64,000 bases of DNA from Sulfolobaceae archaeon (lineage in GTDB: Archaea; Thermoproteota; Thermoprotei_A; Sulfolobales; Sulfolobaceae): NCBI GenBank assembly GCA_026627305.1, contig JAPNVD010000005.1:62001-126000 (forward strand). Direction: 5' to 3'. The notes under the pieces were generated by a model. It ran no database searches, was not told the DNA's origin, and saw nothing but the letters and a program-made list of their open reading frames with translations. Position 1 is the stretch's first letter, and every line of letters starts with the position of its first letter. The position numbers were made by a program, and so were the translations under genes. Of the stretch, positions 45,024 to 54,797 are shown piece after piece.

Positions 45024-46145
45024 ATGATAGTTAAATATACTTCGGAATTCGCAAGGCTAACTAAAGTGCTAGTTCATACTCCTTCAGACGAGATCGATAG
45101 GCTCACTCCTAAGAACTATAGGGATCTGTTATTTGATGATATACCTGATAAAGAGGAGATGAAGAGGGAACATGACGAGTTCAAACAGATATTACGTAAT
45201 AATGGCGTAGAGGTATTAGATGTGAAATCAGAGCTTAGCAAGTTACGTAAAGAAGAACTATTAAACATTTTGGAACAATACAACTATTGTAACATACCCT
45301 TTTCCTCCCTAGACGTCCCACAACTTGTAAACATTGTAATAAATGGGCTCACTATAGAGGAAGCCAAGAAATTAGGTTATGAACCAGCAGTTAACGTTGA
45401 TGATGAGTTCTGTATACCTCCAATACCTAATATACTCTTTACTAGAGATCCTGGAATAATAGTTAAAGATTCGTACATAGTAAGCAATATGAAGTTCGAA
45501 GCTAGAAAGAGAGAGCCTAGCGTGTTAAGGGCTATAGTAAGCCCTGAAAAGGTAATAACGGTGAAACAGGGAGTTATTGAGGGAGGTGATGTTATGCCAA
45601 TAGTTGAAGGTGTAACTCTATTTGGTTTTGGAGTGAGGAGTGAAGTTAAGGGTTTAACAGAAGTTCTTAAAAAGCTTAAAGAGTACGGAGATCTTGATGA
45701 GGCAATTCTTCTCCGTATTGAAACACCTGAAGCCAGACCAGGAAGAGCTATGATCCATCTAGATTCAATATTGGGGATCCCTTCAGATGATATCATGGTA
45801 TACTATCGCTATGTAGATAACTTGAAAGTTTACGTGTATAAGAATAAAGAGGCGGAATTGCAGTCTAAAAACCTCATAGAAGTTATGAGAGATTACTTAG
45901 GAAGAGATCTTAGACCTATTAGAGTGGGTGAAGGGACTTATTTTGATGAGGAAAGGGAGCATTGGCTATTAGCCAGCAACTTTTTAACAATTAATAATGG
46001 AGTAGTGGTATCATTTGAGCATAATAGGTTGACGAATAGATTATTAGAAGAAAACGGTGTAAAAGTATTAACTTTCAGAGGGAATGAACTCATAAAGGGC
46101 GGTGGAGGACCTCGTTGTATGAGTTTACCAGTGGTTAAGGCATAG
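45024..46145 (+). CDS. arcA: Arginine deiminase
   Basis: Converts arginine to citrulline and ammonia. The guanidine-modifying enzyme residues are all visible: LFTRDPGII (Asp), VIEGGDVMP (Glu/Asp), RAMIHLDSIL (His and Asp), and the nucleophile Cys in GGGGPRCMSLPV at the C terminus. It starts with TSEFARLTKVLVHTPSDE..., typical of arginine deiminases rather than agmatine deiminases. The length (373) is slightly shorter than bacterial ArcA (about 410). No ornithine transcarbamylase or carbamate kinase is next to it, so a full deiminase ATP pathway is not shown here. Confidence 0.88.
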   Translation: MIVKYTSEFARLTKVLVHTPSDEIDRLTPKNYRDLLFDDIPDKEEMKREHDEFKQILRNNGVEVLDVKSELSKLRKEELLNILEQYNYCNIPFSSLDVPQLVNIVINGLTIEEAKKLGYEPAVNVDDEFCIPPIPNILFTRDPGIIVKDSYIVSNMKFEARKREPSVLRAIVSPEKVITVKQGVIEGGDVMPIVEGVTLFGFGVRSEVKGLTEVLKKLKEYGDLDEAILLRIETPEARPGRAMIHLDSILGIPSDDIMVYYRYVDNLKVYVYKNKEAELQSKNLIEVMRDYLGRDLRPIRVGEGTYFDEEREHWLLASNFLTINNGVVVSFEHNRLTNRLLEENGVKVLTFRGNELIKGGGGPRCMSLPVVKA

Positions 46146-46201
46146 ACTATCCCTTTCCCCAATTAACAATCTTTTTATACTTATTCTCTTAATGAGTGAC
46201 T

Positions 46202-48838
46202 ATGAAATATAACTACTCCTATGCCCTAGATTCTGGCGTTGCATTAGGTGGTATAGGCACAGGCATTATAGAAATAAAGGCTGATGGGAGGCTTTACAAT
46301 TGGTCGATCTTCAATAACGGATTTTTCACTACTTTAAGTGAGTATAGAAGAACGTATTACCTCACGCCCAGAGATTTTGCCTTCTTCGTGAGGGTCAAGG
46401 ATTCTAATGGTAGAATAAAAGTTAGGGTCTTACAGGCTTATGACTATTACTATGCGGGAAGCCCCTATACATTCCCTTGGGTAAGACCTATTAAGGGAAT
46501 AGAATTTAACGGAGAGCCGCCATTTGCATTTTTAGAATATAAGGATGATGATCTACCAGTCAACATAACTCTAGAGGCTTTCTCACCATTGATACCTGGA
46601 GATCTAAAGAACTCTACAATACCAGTAGCGATATTTAAATTCGTAGTTGAGGCTAAGGACGATGTGGAAATATCCTTATTATCACTACTACGCTCGCCAT
46701 TCGAGTTAACTGAAGTATTTGTAAGATCTGACGGTTTCTCTATAGTTCCTAGAGAATTAAGTCAAAACGACCCAAGATATTGGGGTTCGATGAGCTTATC
46801 AGCAATAGTTGATCAAGGTAAGATCTTCGCTGGTGCAATAAGGCAACAAAAGGATATAGCGCCTAGCTATCACGATTCAAAAGAACTAATAGATATCCTA
46901 ATTCAGCTTAGAAGCAAAGGTTACGTGGAGGTAAAAGAGCTGTTAAAGGCTGAAAAAGATATCTGGGGATTCACTGGCGCCATGAAGAGCTTAAAGAAGG
47001 GTGAAAAAACGGAAATATATTTCATCTTAGGTTGGTATTTCCCAAACCATATTGATAATTATGGTGAAAGGCTTGGTCATTATTATGAAAGATTCTTTGG
47101 CTATTCAGAAGATGTGGTAAATTATGTGAAGCAAAACTTAAAGTATCTGGAGGAGAAGACCAGGAAATTCCATGATATATTATATAACCCAGAAGGAGTT
47201 GAGAAGTGGATAGCAGACCTAGCAGGCGCACAGCTCTCAACGCTTCTTAAGGGTACTTGGCTAACCAAAGATGGAACCTTTGCTTGGTGGGAAGGGATTT
47301 GGGAGAGCTATAGCGAGAGAACATTTGGAAACGGCTATTATTATGATGGACCCATGAATAATGCTCTTAACACCACTGACGTGATGCTCTATGCGTTGCT
47401 TATGTTAGTTTCGTTATTTCCCGAACTAGCTAAAAATTATGTGAAGAGACAATACTCTTATGTTCTAAAACCTGATAATCCAATGTATATCCTTTATGTA
47501 TTATCAATACCTGAAAACCTTCAGGAGTATAGGAAACTACTACAGCAGAACCCTGAGATCAGCACAGATCTCGAGAAGTTAAGAGCTGCGGTTGAAGAAA
47601 TAGTAAAGAAGACTGGCAAGGATCCGAAGTACAGGGCACCACACTTCTTCTCTAAATCAATAAAGAGGGTAGATCAGTACCACATGATCAGTAACGTACC
47701 TGAACTGGTCATTAGTGCTCATCTTGTAGCCTCGTATACCGGAGACCTAGATATGGTAAAAGAGCTAATAGATACGATGTTAGAGAGCATGAGAAGTATT
47801 GAGAGAACGTCGTTCATAAATGATCTTCCATATCACACATTGCCTAGTGGTATAGATTGGATTAATAACATAAATAGAATGTTTAACGATTTAGATCCCT
47901 TCTTGAGGAACTTTCTCATATCCTTACTAGGCAATTCCTCTGTACCTATTGGCTTTACAACATACGACGTATGGTCTTGGATAGGACATTCAGCTTATGT
48001 ATCTATATTGTGGACTGCAGCGTTAAAGTCCTTGATTACCTTAACAAAATTGCTGAATAGGCAAAAGGATTATGAGGAGCTGGATATTAAATACAAGAAG
48101 GCTATAGCTACAATAAATTCAGAACTGTGGAACGGAACCTATTTCAGGGCTTGGAAAGATCCCATTAGCGGTCTACAAGATGATTTTATAGTAGCAGCCC
48201 AACTAGTGGGCGAGTATTTCGCAAAGATCCTGAATTTAGGTTATATCACTTCAAAAGAACAAGTTAGGGCAACGTTGAAGACGATATTTGAAAACAACTA
48301 CTTTGATGAGGAGGGATTAATAAATGGCATATATCCAGGTGCTGAGAGACCTGCATTTAAGGGAGAGATGAGATATGAATTCAATATACCCTTACTCCCA
48401 GGATACCATGCTGATACACCATGGTCTGGCATAGAGTTTATGGTTGCCTCTCATATGATTTACGAATCCATGGTTAATGAAGCTAAAGAGATCTTAAAGA
48501 ACATCAAGGAAAGATATGAAGTTGCTGGACACTTCTGGAACCATGTGGAGTGGGGTGCAGGTTATATGAGACCAGCTTCAGCGTGGGGTCTAATTCACGC
48601 CTTTGAGGGACTAGTATATGATGGTCTATCTAAAACTCTATATATATCTCCTAAAGCAGAGAAATTGAAATGGCTATTCGCAGTTAGTGGAAATTGGGGC
48701 ATTATAGAGTATAATAACGGAAAAGTGAGGATACAATTAGAGAAGGGCAACTTAACGCTGAATAAGATATACGTTAATGATAAGTTAGTAAAAGAGGGAG
48801 AAATAGTAATAAAAGAGGGAGAATCCATAGAGATCTAA
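46202..48838 (+). CDS. GH116-family glycosidase (GBA2-like)
   Basis: Related to bile-acid beta-glucosidase GBA2 and to Sulfolobus GH116 enzymes with beta-glucosidase, beta-xylosidase or N-acetyl-beta-glucosaminidase activity. The N-terminal beta-sandwich opens ALDSGVALGGIGTGIIEIK, and the C-terminal alpha/alpha-barrel contains FTTYDVWSWIGHSAYVSILW, NRMFNDLDPF and WGAGYMRPASAWGLI. By hand alignment with the GBA2 motif LEGQEYRMYNTYDV this protein has YDGPMNNALNTTDV (D382, M385), so the nucleophile position may be altered. No signal peptide. ATG 46202 (878 residues) lies 26 bases from a TATA (TTTTTATAC) and is preferred over GTG 46196. Next to an amino-sugar locus. Confidence 0.8.
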   Translation: MKYNYSYALDSGVALGGIGTGIIEIKADGRLYNWSIFNNGFFTTLSEYRRTYYLTPRDFAFFVRVKDSNGRIKVRVLQAYDYYYAGSPYTFPWVRPIKGIEFNGEPPFAFLEYKDDDLPVNITLEAFSPLIPGDLKNSTIPVAIFKFVVEAKDDVEISLLSLLRSPFELTEVFVRSDGFSIVPRELSQNDPRYWGSMSLSAIVDQGKIFAGAIRQQKDIAPSYHDSKELIDILIQLRSKGYVEVKELLKAEKDIWGFTGAMKSLKKGEKTEIYFILGWYFPNHIDNYGERLGHYYERFFGYSEDVVNYVKQNLKYLEEKTRKFHDILYNPEGVEKWIADLAGAQLSTLLKGTWLTKDGTFAWWEGIWESYSERTFGNGYYYDGPMNNALNTTDVMLYALLMLVSLFPELAKNYVKRQYSYVLKPDNPMYILYVLSIPENLQEYRKLLQQNPEISTDLEKLRAAVEEIVKKTGKDPKYRAPHFFSKSIKRVDQYHMISNVPELVISAHLVASYTGDLDMVKELIDTMLESMRSIERTSFINDLPYHTLPSGIDWINNINRMFNDLDPFLRNFLISLLGNSSVPIGFTTYDVWSWIGHSAYVSILWTAALKSLITLTKLLNRQKDYEELDIKYKKAIATINSELWNGTYFRAWKDPISGLQDDFIVAAQLVGEYFAKILNLGYITSKEQVRATLKTIFENNYFDEEGLINGIYPGAERPAFKGEMRYEFNIPLLPGYHADTPWSGIEFMVASHMIYESMVNEAKEILKNIKERYEVAGHFWNHVEWGAGYMRPASAWGLIHAFEGLVYDGLSKTLYISPKAEKLKWLFAVSGNWGIIEYNNGKVRIQLEKGNLTLNKIYVNDKLVKEGEIVIKEGESIEI

Positions 48839-49058: not shown

Positions 49059-50651
49059 ATGGGAGAAACAAGAGGTTTATTTATACGTGAAACCTCAGGT
49101 CTAGTAAGGGAAATAAGTCCATGGGCTTCATTAACAGCGACTTTTGGTCTAGTAACTGGAGGAATACCAATAATTATAGTGTCTTGGCTATATTTAGCTC
49201 CAGGTGCAAATTGGACTCTAGCATATTTAATAACTCTACTGCCAGTACTCGCCCTGGCCTTTCTCTTTTTTGTAGGCGGGGCGTCAATGCCCAGATCTGG
49301 AGGAGACTATGTGTTCAACACTAGGGCAGTACACCCTCTGATAGGTTATATGAACTATTTCGGGTTATTTATCGGCTTTGCACTATCATTAGGTTATTAT
49401 AGTTATCTTGCAGCACAATGGTTCGGTTACTTATTCTCCGGTATTGGATTATATTATAATTCTTCTTTTTTGATTAATCTGGGTAATTTCTTTAGCAGTG
49501 TAGAAGGCAGTCTGATTGTTGGGACAATTGTCGTAATCCTTTCAGCTGGTTTAGCCATGTTACCCAGAGCCCAATGGAAGTTTGTGTTGTATTCTGGTAT
49601 AATAACTCTAATTACAACAATTATCATGTATATAGCCCTATGGAAAATTACACCCACAGTATTTGCTAACACTTTAGCTCATTTCACGGGAGTCCCTAAC
49701 GCTTACTCACAAGTAATCTCAGATGCAGAGAAAAATGGCTTAACTTTCGTATCACCAATTTATGGTGCCATGCTTGCAGTGCCGGTTGTATGGTACTATT
49801 ATAGTTGGTATAATTTACCAGCTTCATGGGCAGGGGAGCTAAGAAAGGCGAGATATAATCTGCTACTTTCAATAATAGTAGGAATAATAATAATTGCAAT
49901 ATATTACATGAGCTTTACTTACTTCATACTCAGGTCTTTTGGACAGCAGTTTTTAGTTTCGTGGAGCTATATAACAGCTAATGGTATAAATGATACAGTT
50001 TATAACCAATTGTCATCCATAGGGCCGTTCATACCGTTCTTCGGACTTCTAGTACTCCATAGCCTACCGCTTTACATTATAATGTTTATAGCGCTCTGGC
50101 TACCTAACTTCTATAGTAATCCTCCCTTAGTTACAGGTCTAGTTAGATACCTGTTTGCATGGTCTTTCGATAGGATTATGCCAGAGTGGATGGCTGACGT
50201 AAATGAAAGGTTTAGGGCTCCAATAAAGGCTACAATAGTAGTGACACTCCTAGGTGAATTGGGCTTATTAGCTTATGCATACAATACTGCGATAAGTATA
50301 GTGGATGTAACAGTGATATTCCAGATCTCATACGCTATATTTGCATTATCCGCAGCCCTAATGCCCTATTTGAGGAAAGACCTGTTCAAAAACGTGGTGA
50401 TAGTTAAGAGAAAAATACTAGGTATTCCAGTGCTTACTTGGATAGGCTCAGCAACTTTCGCGTTCTTATTATGGTCACTGATATATACATGGGGTAATCC
50501 TGTGCTACTACCAATTAACTTACCTACAATATTGTCTTTAGTAATAATTTACGGTGTAGGACTTGGAATATATATCATAGCTAGGGAGGTTAGAAAAAGA
50601 AGACTAGGAATAGATATAAATCTTGTATTTAGAGAAATACCACCCGAATAA
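49059..50651 (+). CDS. APC-superfamily permease
   Basis: A membrane transporter of about 12 helices with the APC-type N terminus ([19 protein letters not shown]) and the loop motif [18 protein letters not shown] after helix 2, which is typical of amino-acid/polyamine permeases. The length (530) fits. It stands between the GH116-like enzyme and the GlmS-NagA pair, so its substrate could be an amino sugar or peptide released by the pathway, but APC proteins mostly carry amino acids. A TATA (CTTTAAATT near 49026) precedes ATG by about 33 bases. Confidence 0.85.
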
Positions 50652-50674: not shown

Positions 50675-52465
50675 TTAATAGATAACTGCTTTTACCAACG
50701 CTGGTGGAGTATCTATGGGCATGTTTCTCTTCACTCCTATTTTATAAGCTAGCATTTGAAGAGCTACTGCGACTGAAATGGGCATTAGATCCTTAACCGT
50801 CTTAATAACAGATAGCCTCAGTAACCCCTCTTCCCCTTTTTGCCTATCGTCATAGCTCTCTATAGCAATTAAGTTAGCCCCCTTCTGTTTAGAGTTCTCT
50901 AGTACTTTATAGTATAGCTCCTGAGCCTCATCCTCTACTGGTCTTATAAATATTATAGGCAGACCTTTAGTAGCCAAAGTTAAGGGGCCATGCATCAATT
51001 CTCCCATTTGAAATCCTTCTGCATGAACACCTGAAGCTTCCTTAAGCTTTAATGCACCCTCTAATGCTAGTGGATACATTATACCACTACTTGCCACATA
51101 GAAATCGCCCCACGTATATATCTTTTCAGCGATCTCTTCAGCGCTTTTCTCTAATCTAGGCATTATTTCTTTCAGACTTTTACTTAATGCTTTGACGTTT
51201 TCGTTAAGGCTCGAAATGTCAGATTGAGTCCTTTTGTTCGTGTTTAATCCAACGTAATACGAGAGTTCTAACAAGGCAAGTATAGTAGAAGTAAAAGTCT
51301 TCGTCGCAGGTACAGCCATTTCTGGACCTGCTGCGATAGGTAAGTAAACGTTAGATTCCAGAGCTAAACGCGAGCCGACATAGTTCGTTACACCAACTAT
51401 TACAGCCCCCCTCTGCTTTGCCAATTTTACACTTCTTATGACGTCAGATGTCTCACCGCTTTGGCTTATAGCTACTATTACAGTTCCAGTTGTTACGTTA
51501 TTTAACGCATAATATGGAAACTCTGCTGCACTTATTACATTAGCGTTTAACCCGTTCTGGAGTAGATAATAGGAAGCCAACATTCCCGCATGTAAGCTCG
51601 TGCCGTTTCCAATTATATAGATGTTTTTAGCACCATAAAGTATCATAGATGATAGCCTAAGATATTTATCCATTAAGGATAGGCTAGTACTTATTAGGGC
51701 ATCTGGGACTTCATAAATTTCCTTCAACATGTAGTGTGGAAATCCAGCCTTTTCACCACCAGGAAAAGGCTTCACCCTCTTCTTTTCCCTCAATTCGACT
51801 TGCTCACCAGTGTAGATATTTACAGCCTTTATACCATCTAGGGAGATCTCAACGAGCGTGAAATCTGGAACTATCAACGCCTCTTCCGCGAAGTTATTTA
51901 GGCTTTGGATATCACTGGAGACGTAATAGCATTCTTCTTTATCGTTTATGCCTATTACTAGAGGCTGATCCATCTGCACAGCGTAAATTACATTCTTTTT
52001 AGAAAAAAGAGCCACAAATGCAAAAAGACCTTTCAGCATGTTAGCGGTATCAAACACACTATTTTTCTCGAGCAAGTGAGGTATGACTTCTACATCTGTA
52101 GTTGAAACAAATTTATGGCCTTTACTTTTAAGATCATCCCTGATTATCTCATAGTCATAAATTAATCCATCAGCAACTACACCTATTTTTGAATTACAGT
52201 CTAACAAAGGATGAGTGTTTTCATATGTTGGCCAACCTCTACTGGCATATCTTGTGTGACCAACAGCTATATTAGCAAAGTAGTCCTGGTCAAGCTTAAA
52301 TTCATCAACTTTTACAGGCTGTTTGACAACTTTTAGCTCCCCATTTGCATCTAGAAACATTATTCCGGTACCGTTATAACCCCTATATATGAGCCTCTTT
52401 AACCCTTGAATAATATCACTAACCCTTCTCTGCTTCTTACAGATGAAGCCGAATATTCCTCCCAA
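50675..52465 (-). CDS. glmS: GlmS-like protein with inactivated glutaminase domain
   Basis: Full-length homologue of glutamine:fructose-6-phosphate aminotransferase, with an N-terminal glutaminase-type domain (1-235) and two SIS sugar-isomerase domains. The start codon is followed by GGA-GGA instead of a Cys codon (MGGIFG), so the N-terminal Cys nucleophile is missing; the oxyanion Asn-Gly is replaced (A98-D99-G100) and RWATHG by RYASRG. The isomerase part keeps GNGTSLHAG, ISQSGETSDV, LEGALKLKEAS, ELMHGPL and the C-terminal DTPPALVKAVIY Lys. It therefore cannot use glutamine in the normal way and probably deaminates glucosamine-6-phosphate, or uses ammonia. Divergent from nagA. Confidence 0.88.
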   Translation of the reverse strand: MGGIFGFICKKQRRVSDIIQGLKRLIYRGYNGTGIMFLDANGELKVVKQPVKVDEFKLDQDYFANIAVGHTRYASRGWPTYENTHPLLDCNSKIGVVADGLIYDYEIIRDDLKSKGHKFVSTTDVEVIPHLLEKNSVFDTANMLKGLFAFVALFSKKNVIYAVQMDQPLVIGINDKEECYYVSSDIQSLNNFAEEALIVPDFTLVEISLDGIKAVNIYTGEQVELREKKRVKPFPGGEKAGFPHYMLKEIYEVPDALISTSLSLMDKYLRLSSMILYGAKNIYIIGNGTSLHAGMLASYYLLQNGLNANVISAAEFPYYALNNVTTGTVIVAISQSGETSDVIRSVKLAKQRGAVIVGVTNYVGSRLALESNVYLPIAAGPEMAVPATKTFTSTILALLELSYYVGLNTNKRTQSDISSLNENVKALSKSLKEIMPRLEKSAEEIAEKIYTWGDFYVASSGIMYPLALEGALKLKEASGVHAEGFQMGELMHGPLTLATKGLPIIFIRPVEDEAQELYYKVLENSKQKGANLIAIESYDDRQKGEEGLLRLSVIKTVKDLMPISVAVALQMLAYKIGVKRNMPIDTPPALVKAVIY

Positions 52466-52489: not shown

Positions 52490-52505
52490 AGAAATATATA
52501 AAAAT
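52490..52505. promoter_or_regulatory. Shared TATA element of glmS-like and nagA genes
   Basis: AGAAATATATAAAAAT is the only clear TATA in the 61-base divergent gap. Its centre (52497) lies 32 bases from the TTG at 52465 and 30 bases from the ATG at 52527, so one symmetric element can serve both leaderless or nearly leaderless genes and coordinate the pathway. Confidence 0.5.
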
Positions 52506-52526: not shown

Positions 52527-53666
52527 ATGAAGACGCTCTTTAAGAACGCTAAAATAGTGAGCCCCGAGTATGAGTTTATCGGTTACTTTGTTGTAGATAA
52601 TGGCAAGATTGTAAAGGTTAGAGAAGGGCATACGTTAGAACAAGGAATTGATCTTAAGGGTAAGATTGTAATCCCAGGTTTTATTGATATTCACGTGCAT
52701 GGAGGTTTCGGAATAGACTTCACTGAGGAAGCCAGCAAGGGAAAACTAGTTGAAGCGATAGAGAATTACAGAAGGAAAATAGTAAAGCTAGGCGTAACCT
52801 CTTTTTCTCCTACAACTGTTACATCTCCGCATGAGGTTCTATTACAAGCGTCCAAAGAAATAAGCGAAGTAAATATGGAGAGCGATGAAGGGGCTAGAGT
52901 TCTAGGACTACACCTTGAGGGACCTTATATAAGTCCGCAAGCTGCAGGCGCACAGGATGTAACTTACATTAGACCTGCAAATATAAAAGAGCTAGAGGAG
53001 TATTGGAAGTCATCTAATGGAAGAATAGCTAGTATTACTGTAGCTCCTGAAATAGAAAACGCCTTAGATTTCATAGAGTACGCAACACTACTGGGAATCC
53101 ATGTATCTATAGGTCATACTAACGCCACATACAAGCAAGCGATTGATGCGATAAGGGCAGGTGCAGATAGGGCAACACACTTGTTTGATGCCATGACTAA
53201 GATTCATCATAGAGATCCAGGAGCTGTTATAGCTATATTACAGAGCGATATAATGGTAGAGCTCATAATGGATACAATACATGTTGTGCCCGATATGATA
53301 AAGTATGTTATCTCCACGATAGGTGTCAAGAGAGTAATTGCAGTAACAGATGCCATGGCTGCTGCAGGTTTGGGCGATGGAGAATACGTTTTAGGCTCTA
53401 AAAAGGTGAAGGTAACATGTAATACTGCAAGAACAGAAGATGGAAGACTAGCGGGTAGTGTTGCAACGATGGATAGGTATTTTTACACTCTCTTGATGAT
53501 GGGATATAGCCTTTCAGATGTGAGTAGGATGCTATCCTTAAATCCCGCTAGGGCATTGAATTTGAAACTAGGCTGTATAAAACCAGGTTGTAATGCAGAT
53601 TTTATAGTTTTAAATAGCGATATGAAAATTGAAGAAGTCCATATAAATGGTAAAAAAATAGTTTGA
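52527..53666 (+). CDS. nagA: N-acetylglucosamine-6-phosphate deacetylase
   Basis: An amidohydrolase-superfamily enzyme removing acetate from N-acetylglucosamine-6-phosphate. Zinc and substrate residues are in IPGFIDIHVHGGFGID (about 49-64), GLHLEGPYISPQAAGAQ (about 131-147), SIGHTNATYKQAID, RATHLFDAMTKI (His) and AVTDAMAAAG (catalytic Asp). The length (379) is normal. Leaderless ATG. Divergent from the glmS-like gene and convergent with the sugar kinase gene (gap of 4 bases), forming a compact three-gene block. Confidence 0.93.
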   Translation: MKTLFKNAKIVSPEYEFIGYFVVDNGKIVKVREGHTLEQGIDLKGKIVIPGFIDIHVHGGFGIDFTEEASKGKLVEAIENYRRKIVKLGVTSFSPTTVTSPHEVLLQASKEISEVNMESDEGARVLGLHLEGPYISPQAAGAQDVTYIRPANIKELEEYWKSSNGRIASITVAPEIENALDFIEYATLLGIHVSIGHTNATYKQAIDAIRAGADRATHLFDAMTKIHHRDPGAVIAILQSDIMVELIMDTIHVVPDMIKYVISTIGVKRVIAVTDAMAAAGLGDGEYVLGSKKVKVTCNTARTEDGRLAGSVATMDRYFYTLLMMGYSLSDVSRMLSLNPARALNLKLGCIKPGCNADFIVLNSDMKIEEVHINGKKIV

Positions 53667-53670
53667 ATTC

Positions 53671-54693
53671 TTAACCCCAACCTCCAGGGGGTTTCTCGAA
53701 ATAGAAATACTTAAGTAATAGGGGTTTTCCAAGCTCCGTAATTTTCTGGTCTAACTGTTTAAGCAAACTACTAAGTAAATCGAAATCTACATCGTAATTC
53801 ATATCCTTTAATAAAATCATCAAACCTCCTACTACCACTTGATATCCATAAAATACGTGAATTTGATGAGAAACCCTTTTTCTGACTTCATCTATTAAAA
53901 CATTACCAGCTAGTGCCAAACCTCCTACAATCGAAATCCTAGGTGGGGATTCAAACTCTTTTAACAATCTCTTTATAACAGAGGCTATATAATCAGCAGC
54001 CTCCTCAACTACCATCTTAGCTGCCTTATAGTTTTTAGCAGCTAGAGCAGTAACTTTGGGTGCAAAACTAGCTACTTCAGGCTTACTATGGTTTATTTCT
54101 AATCTCCAAATTACTTCCTTAAACTTTCCACCGAAATGCTCCTCAACTGCTTTTACCAACTCATCACCTTCTAATAGGCCATCGTATTGCCGTACGGCAT
54201 ATGTTATAGCTCTCCTAGCAATCCAAGAAGCGGAGCCCTCATCACCTGCAAACCATCCCCAACCGCCTACCCTCTTTAACACGCCATTCTTTTGATAATA
54301 ATTTACATTTCCAGTGCCTACATATACCAATATCCCGTCTTCGAAGAGATTAGCTAGTCTATAACCTGCAATCCCGTCGTTAAATAATAGGTATGGTTTT
54401 GACTCGGAAATACTATCCGCTATGTCTGTAGCTATCCTATCGGACTCTTCTGAATCCCCTACTCCAGCCAAGCTAAAAAGCAACTTATCTATATCATTAA
54501 GGGTTAGTGACGAATTATAAAAGGCCATATTAATAGCATCCCTTATATTATCAGTAGCCACTTGAGCCCCCACAGCATTAAAATTTGAAGGACCTCCTAC
54601 ACCTATCCCCGTAATTTTCATATCCTTAGGATTTAAAATCGCAGACACTGTCTTAGTAGCTCCTCCATCTATTGAAAGTAAATAGCCTGCCAT
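53671..54693 (-). CDS. BadF-family hexokinase/N-acetylglucosamine kinase
   Basis: An ASKHA-fold sugar kinase. The phosphate motifs are LLSIDGGATKTVSAIL at the N terminus and YVGTGNVNYY in the middle; GGWGWFAGDEGSASWIARRA is the BadF/GlcNAc-kinase signature, and SIVGGLALAGN closes the adenosine site. The S. tokodaii hexokinase of this type phosphorylates glucose, mannose, glucosamine and N-acetylglucosamine. ATG 54693 lies about 27 bases from a TATA (TTTATTTATAAC on the minus strand); ATG 54711 is also in frame. It would supply GlcNAc-6-phosphate to NagA next door. Confidence 0.88.
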   Translation of the reverse strand: MAGYLLSIDGGATKTVSAILNPKDMKITGIGVGGPSNFNAVGAQVATDNIRDAINMAFYNSSLTLNDIDKLLFSLAGVGDSEESDRIATDIADSISESKPYLLFNDGIAGYRLANLFEDGILVYVGTGNVNYYQKNGVLKRVGGWGWFAGDEGSASWIARRAITYAVRQYDGLLEGDELVKAVEEHFGGKFKEVIWRLEINHSKPEVASFAPKVTALAAKNYKAAKMVVEEAADYIASVIKRLLKEFESPPRISIVGGLALAGNVLIDEVRKRVSHQIHVFYGYQVVVGGLMILLKDMNYDVDFDLLSSLLKQLDQKITELGKPLLLKYFYFEKPPGGWG

Positions 54694-54797
54694 CAAGTTA
54701 ATTATGCCCATTGTTATAAATAAATTTTCAGTACTCTATCTTTGCATATAAATTACAAATTATTGAGAGTATAAACAATAATAAAAAATGATGAGAT

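Follow-up and report, generated by a model that had tools for sequence, protein, structure and literature searches.

Gene content of the locus

The window, that is, the whole 64,000-nucleotide stretch of DNA that was analysed, carries a gene for a GlmS-like protein of 596 amino acids that starts with TTG and has the N-terminus MGGIFG. This gene is divergent from nagA, with 61 bp between the two (Table 1). The centre of a TATA-like box in the intergenic region stands ~28 nt before the nagA ATG and ~30-38 nt before the TTG of the GlmS-like gene; judging from its position, this single box could serve both genes. Pfam recognizes GATase_6/7 and two SIS stretches in the GlmS-like product. The preliminary description had placed nagA and a GlcNAc-type kinase next door, which agrees with the TIGR00221 and NAGK-like matches. 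Further out lie a possible importer and a GH116-family glycosidase; a GH116 enzyme from Sulfolobus is reported to have a link to GlcNAc. An arginine deiminase family protein is also encoded in the window (45024-46145, + strand; its Pfam ADI match of 207 bits falls short of the ArcA equivalog cut-off).

Table 1. Features of the nagA/GlmS-like locus (window coordinates; residue numbers are those of the window protein unless E. coli is stated)
Feature	Position	Strand	Remarks
GlmS-like gene, Met-Gly-Gly family	50675..52465	-	Pseudo-glutaminase (Ntn-fold) and SIS-SIS isomerase domains; putative GlcN6P deaminase
Predicted inactive glutaminase domain (approximate)	51774..52465	-	Residues about 1-231; GATase_6/GATase_7 match at residues 65-190
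Gly for the Cys1 nucleophile, codon GGA	52460..52462	-	Gly in 49/49 aligned clade members and in the divergent f31 group
Asp99 for oxyanion Asn98	52169..52171	-	Asp in 48/49, Glu in 1/49 clade members
Tyr73 for ammonia-channel gate Trp74	52247..52249	-	Tyr/Phe in 49/49; Ser in the f31 group
Arg72 (E. coli Arg73), amino-acid carboxylate clamp	52250..52252	-	Kept in all aligned
Asp124 (E. coli Asp123), amino-acid amino-group clamp	52094..52096	-	Kept in all aligned
Lys473...Glu476 (E. coli K485, E488), isomerase catalytic	51038..51049	-	Column mapping
His492 (E. coli His504), ring opening	50990..50992	-	Column mapping
Lys592 (E. coli Lys603), Schiff-base lysine	50690..50692	-	Column mapping
TATA-like box between the divergent genes	52494..52505		Sequence position; putative promoter role
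nagA, N-acetylglucosamine-6-phosphate deacetylase	52527..53666	+	TIGR00221 290.9 bits, cut-off 225.65
BadF/NAGK-type sugar kinase	53671..54711	-	Nearest solved: hexokinase 2E2N, MurNAc/GlcNAc kinase 8ZO3, human NAGK 2CH5/2CH6
APC-type permease, possible importer	49059..50651	+	Domain match
GH116-family glycosidase, possible GlcNAc source	46196..48838	+	Domain match

Active-site residues and predicted structure

Residues were mapped by alignment columns against E. coli GlmS, whose numbering is used below. The glutaminase half of the window protein is changed at C1 (G2), W74 (Y73), T76 (S75), H77 (R76), H97 (A98), and N98 (D99), and keeps R26, R73, G99, D123, and E125. Position 1, the Cys nucleophile of glutamine-dependent GlmS, is thus Gly, and the Asn98-Gly99 pair of those enzymes reads Asp-Gly. 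At position 1, Ntn amidotransferase chemistry needs Cys, Ser, or Thr; with none of them there, the glutaminase half must, on its sequence, be inactive. The isomerase half keeps S303, S347, Q348, S349, T352, K485, E488, H504, and K603, differs at C300 (N), A400 (P), Q408 (T), R599 (P), and A602 (V), and looks competent.

These results uphold the preliminary description, which had reported MGGIFG in place of Met-Cys-Gly, an Asp for the Asn of HNG, an altered RWATHG segment (W74Y, T76S, H77R), and an intact isomerase site. An upstream Met-Cys-Gly start, which would have overturned it, is impossible: the frame runs TGT TGA TAA GAG TTG GGA GGA, and two in-frame stops (TGA TAA) precede the TTG. Sequencing error at Gly1 or Asp98, already thought unlikely, is ruled out by the recurrence of Met-Gly-Gly and N98D in dozens of independently sequenced genomes.

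In the AlphaFold model of the window protein, both halves are confident (mean pLDDT 89.8). Its isomerase half aligns with the isomerase domains of GlmS structures at about 2.2-3.4 A, including a domain with bound GlcN6P. The model matches 2J6H and 3OOJ. The whole-chain TM score is about 0.55, a low value that probably reflects the hinge between the domains.

An ancient family across Thermoproteota

Homologues were sought in 214 genomes of the order (Sulfolobales) and, in a separate search, across the phylum (Thermoproteota). Within the order they fall into canonical GlmS, at ~35% identity to the window protein, and a second set at 36-59%. All 55 distinct order proteins of the second set that were examined have Gly-Gly after the initiator, as do all 13 additional proteins from other Thermoproteota groups whose N-terminus could be read; at least 67 further distinct Met-Gly-Gly homologues occur across the phylum. 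In a 96-protein tree, a single clade with support 100 unites the 38 Met-Gly-Gly proteins, apart from the canonical GlmS of the phylum and of bacteria. One change of the nucleophile suffices on this tree, which rules out multiple independent losses. Absence of the nucleophile, as described in the preliminary account, therefore stands; its loss by a single gene does not, because the whole clade is without it. The loss is one ancient, clade-wide event across Thermoproteota and is not peculiar to the window gene. Recent pseudogenisation is ruled out by this single origin, by the intact frames, and by the confidence with which a fold is predicted for the dead domain.

The Sulfolobales paralogues were aligned. 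Across 49 aligned members of the clade, Gly stands at position 1 and Pro at position 400 in 49/49. Also invariant are R73, G99, D123, and E125, together with K485, E488, H504, K603, S303, S347, Q348, S349, and T352 of the isomerase half. A divergent branch (f31) has Gly1, Asp98, R73, D123, and Pro400 in common with the others and carries Ser at 74 and 352.

A second, canonical glmS does exist in the genome of the window (G000:C15:49458-51212, on another contig). It has MCG, RWATHG, and HNG, directly precedes a nucleotidyltransferase-like gene, and encodes a protein 35% identical to the window protein. Most other near-complete carriers of the Met-Gly-Gly gene likewise hold a second, canonical-type match. 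Canonical glmS was undetected in the near-complete genomes G111 (99%) and G119 (97%), from which contigs may be missing; both have a Met-Gly-Gly protein and an isomerase-only protein. A full-text literature search, covering few subscription papers, found no description of the Met-Gly-Gly subfamily.

Linkage to nagA and to sugar uptake

nagA directly adjoins the Met-Gly-Gly gene in 16/59 loci, of which 7 are divergent, 5 tandem with nagA first, 2 tandem with nagA second, and 2 convergent. These four geometries indicate that the linkage arose more than once. Co-occurrence was tallied by hand from tables, unfetched genes being assigned to the second set by score. Near-complete genomes of the order comprise 36 with both genes, 18 with the Met-Gly-Gly gene only, 9 with nagA only, and 55 with neither (Fisher, p=3e-9), and the corresponding counts for genera are 23, 3, 4, and 48 (Fisher, p=1e-12); both p values ignore kinship and so are inflated by species relatedness. 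Expressed by genus, nagA is present in 23/26 with the Met-Gly-Gly gene vs 4/52 without it.

Classical NagB was detected in 0/214 genomes of the order, in a search in which control genomes were positive. An isomerase-only, GlmD-like protein is present in 6/9 of the nagA-only near-complete genomes, and in one of these six (G191) its gene lies immediately beside nagA. The two types overlap in part, since some Met-Gly-Gly carriers also hold an isomerase-only protein. In the G191 locus (L239, 407-3475), nagA, the GlmD-like gene, and an oligopeptide-type ABC ATPase stand in a row on one strand, possibly as a chito-oligosaccharide uptake operon.

PTS enzyme I and mannose/galactosamine-family EII are encoded at the locus in several lineages, among them the divergent f31 branch (L200). 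The genes for EI, EIIA, EIIB, and a fused EIICD (amino-sugar type; clusters 4, 35, 60, and 61) lie beside nagA and/or the Met-Gly-Gly gene. Such loci are L182, L186, and L200 and, in part, L185, L051, L187, and L183. To our knowledge, PTS are rare in Thermoproteota. A PTS is recorded in Thermofilum pendens (PMC2678158). Nine loci (cluster 3; L185:2035-2778 and eight others) also have, close to nagA and the Met-Gly-Gly gene, a SIS_2 protein of ~247 amino acids.

nagA was undetected in the searched genomes of three genera that carry the Met-Gly-Gly gene (g19, g41, and g65), and their fetched loci (L035, L036, and L063 for g65) adjoin unrelated genes. Where loci lack nagA, their conserved neighbours (TrpRS, YchF GTPase, dCTP deaminase-like, ABC ATPase, and others) gave no hint of function and seem to reflect inherited synteny. 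The role of the gene in these genera would be independent of nagA, either glucosamine salvage or action on another substrate.

Relation to known enzymes and annotation

The window protein shares with GlmS/GFAT (TIGR01135) the full-length two-domain architecture and the isomerase catalytic residues. It differs from them in having no Cys1, in N98D, the loss of W74, and A400P, in its catabolic linkage, and in belonging to a separate clade. It nevertheless scores 421.5 against TIGR01135, above the cut-off of 418.05, and relatives reach 492; as the nucleophile is missing from proteins that pass, this score does not establish glutamine use. Proteins of L047, L184, and L190 were also run against this NCBIfam model, which accepts proteins without the catalytic cysteine. 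The family is likely annotated as glutamine-dependent GlmS in public genomes.

GlmD (NF041128; PH0510 structure 2DEC) has the same SIS-SIS, GlmS-type fold and the same proposed reaction and pathway position, but it has no glutaminase domain, whereas the window protein has a folded N-terminal domain; the latter scores 76.4 bits against the GlmD model, below its cut-off of 580. NagB-II (SO3506 type, NF046059; 8EOL, 8FDB) is a SIS-fold GlcN6P deaminase that also has no N-terminal domain, and here the window protein reaches 139.1 bits, below the cut-off of 430. The Met-Gly-Gly family thus parallels GlmD and NagB-II but retains the N-terminal domain. Beta-lactam synthetase is reportedly another case in which a glutaminase-type Ntn domain lost its Cys and was retained, in the asparagine-synthetase lineage and with a biosynthetic reaction. 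The C1A mutant of E. coli GlmS (3OOJ, by its title a glutamate complex) is a nucleophile-less laboratory analogue of the natural Gly1; unlike the window protein, it is engineered, and the rest of its pocket is unchanged.

Proposed reaction and alternatives

The window gene probably encodes a catabolic glucosamine-6-phosphate (GlcN6P) deaminase built on a GlmS scaffold and serving GlcNAc breakdown; we put the probability at roughly three in four. Deamination of GlcN6P had been named as the likely reaction in the preliminary description, and this now gains support from several directions: the linkage to nagA, the phylogenetic profile shared with nagA, the GlmD-like substitution together with the absence of NagB, and the PTS uptake loci. 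The pathway context of a GlcN6P deaminase, NagA with a GlcNAc kinase or a PTS, is present. By the same evidence, GlcN6P deamination in GlcNAc catabolism is most likely the role of the family in many Thermoproteota.

In the proposed pathway, GlcNAc would be set free by a glycosidase, perhaps the GH116 enzyme in the case of the window, and phosphorylated by the NAGK-type kinase; in other species, a PTS would import the sugar phosphate. NagA would then deacetylate GlcNAc phosphate to GlcN6P. The SIS-SIS half would open the ring of GlcN6P by means of the His504 equivalent, and Glu488 and Lys485 with the Schiff-base Lys603 would isomerise it, so that fructose-6-phosphate and ammonia are released. 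With Gly for Cys1, Asp for Asn98, and the channel gate Trp74 gone, the N-terminal half would hydrolyse no glutamine and would be kept as a folded, non-catalytic domain.

The intact isomerase residues would also fit an ammonia-dependent GlcN6P synthase that works in the anabolic direction and has lost the use of glutamine, and G111 and G119, seemingly without canonical glmS, keep the Met-Gly-Gly gene. This reading is nevertheless unlikely, given that most other near-complete carriers hold a canonical-type match, that the association is with nagA and uptake genes, and that the ammonia-channel gate is gone. It is also quite unlikely that the substrate is a different amino-sugar phosphate (galactosamine-6-phosphate or mannosamine-6-phosphate, for instance), which the enzyme would deaminate or isomerise in the manner of AgaS. 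The linked EII proteins do match galactosamine and N-acetylgalactosamine subfamilies among others, and SIS_2 proteins recur beside the Met-Gly-Gly gene; yet the EII scores lie below the curated cut-offs, leaving specificity uncalled, NagA and a NAGK-type kinase are encoded beside the gene in the window, and none of the 25 top-scoring matches to the window protein is to the AgaS family.

The dead glutaminase half and the paralogue in the same genome would also be accounted for if the protein were a regulatory pseudo-enzyme, acting as a partner of the canonical GlmS to adjust hexosamine flux. The complete isomerase site is, however, invariant in all aligned members, and a stand-alone isomerase replaces the Met-Gly-Gly gene in nagA-positive relatives; neither would be expected of a pure regulator, and such a role is very improbable.

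Constraint on the dead domain and implications for the family

Mean constraint differs between the two halves of the protein. Pairwise identity among the 49 Met-Gly-Gly members is 39% in the glutaminase half and 53% in the isomerase half (log-identity ratio 1.51), vs 51% and 50% in canonical GlmS of the phylum (ratio 0.97). The dead half thus changes at about 1.5 times the rate of the isomerase half; constraint on it is loosened but still considerable. Nor is this mere decay: the clamp residues Arg73 and Asp123 are invariant, and the replacements Gly1 and Asp98 are constant, save for Glu98 in 1/49. In E. coli GlmS, R73 and D123 hold glutamine by its alpha-carboxylate and alpha-amino groups. 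Selective conservation of this amino-acid clamp makes some retained function of the dead domain likely. The preliminary description had suggested that the domain may hold the oligomer or sense a ligand; it probably retains the ability to bind an amino-acid-like ligand or else keeps the assembly in place. A more specific and tentative suggestion is that it acts as an amino-acid sensor, with Arg73, Asp123, and Gly99 as the clamp, gating the putative catabolic deaminase.

The proposed enzyme would fill the deaminase gap in the GlcNAc breakdown of an archaeal order in which NagB is undetected. Acceptance of the family by the TIGR01135 equivalog model indicates systematic mis-annotation as glmS. 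Should the sensor suggestion be true, a biosynthetic amidotransferase would have turned into a nitrogen-regulated degradative enzyme. The family is a natural, ancient, and well-sampled amidotransferase lineage without glutaminase activity, as predicted from its active site, in which the domain has been kept, and the purpose of a pseudo-glutaminase thereby becomes testable.
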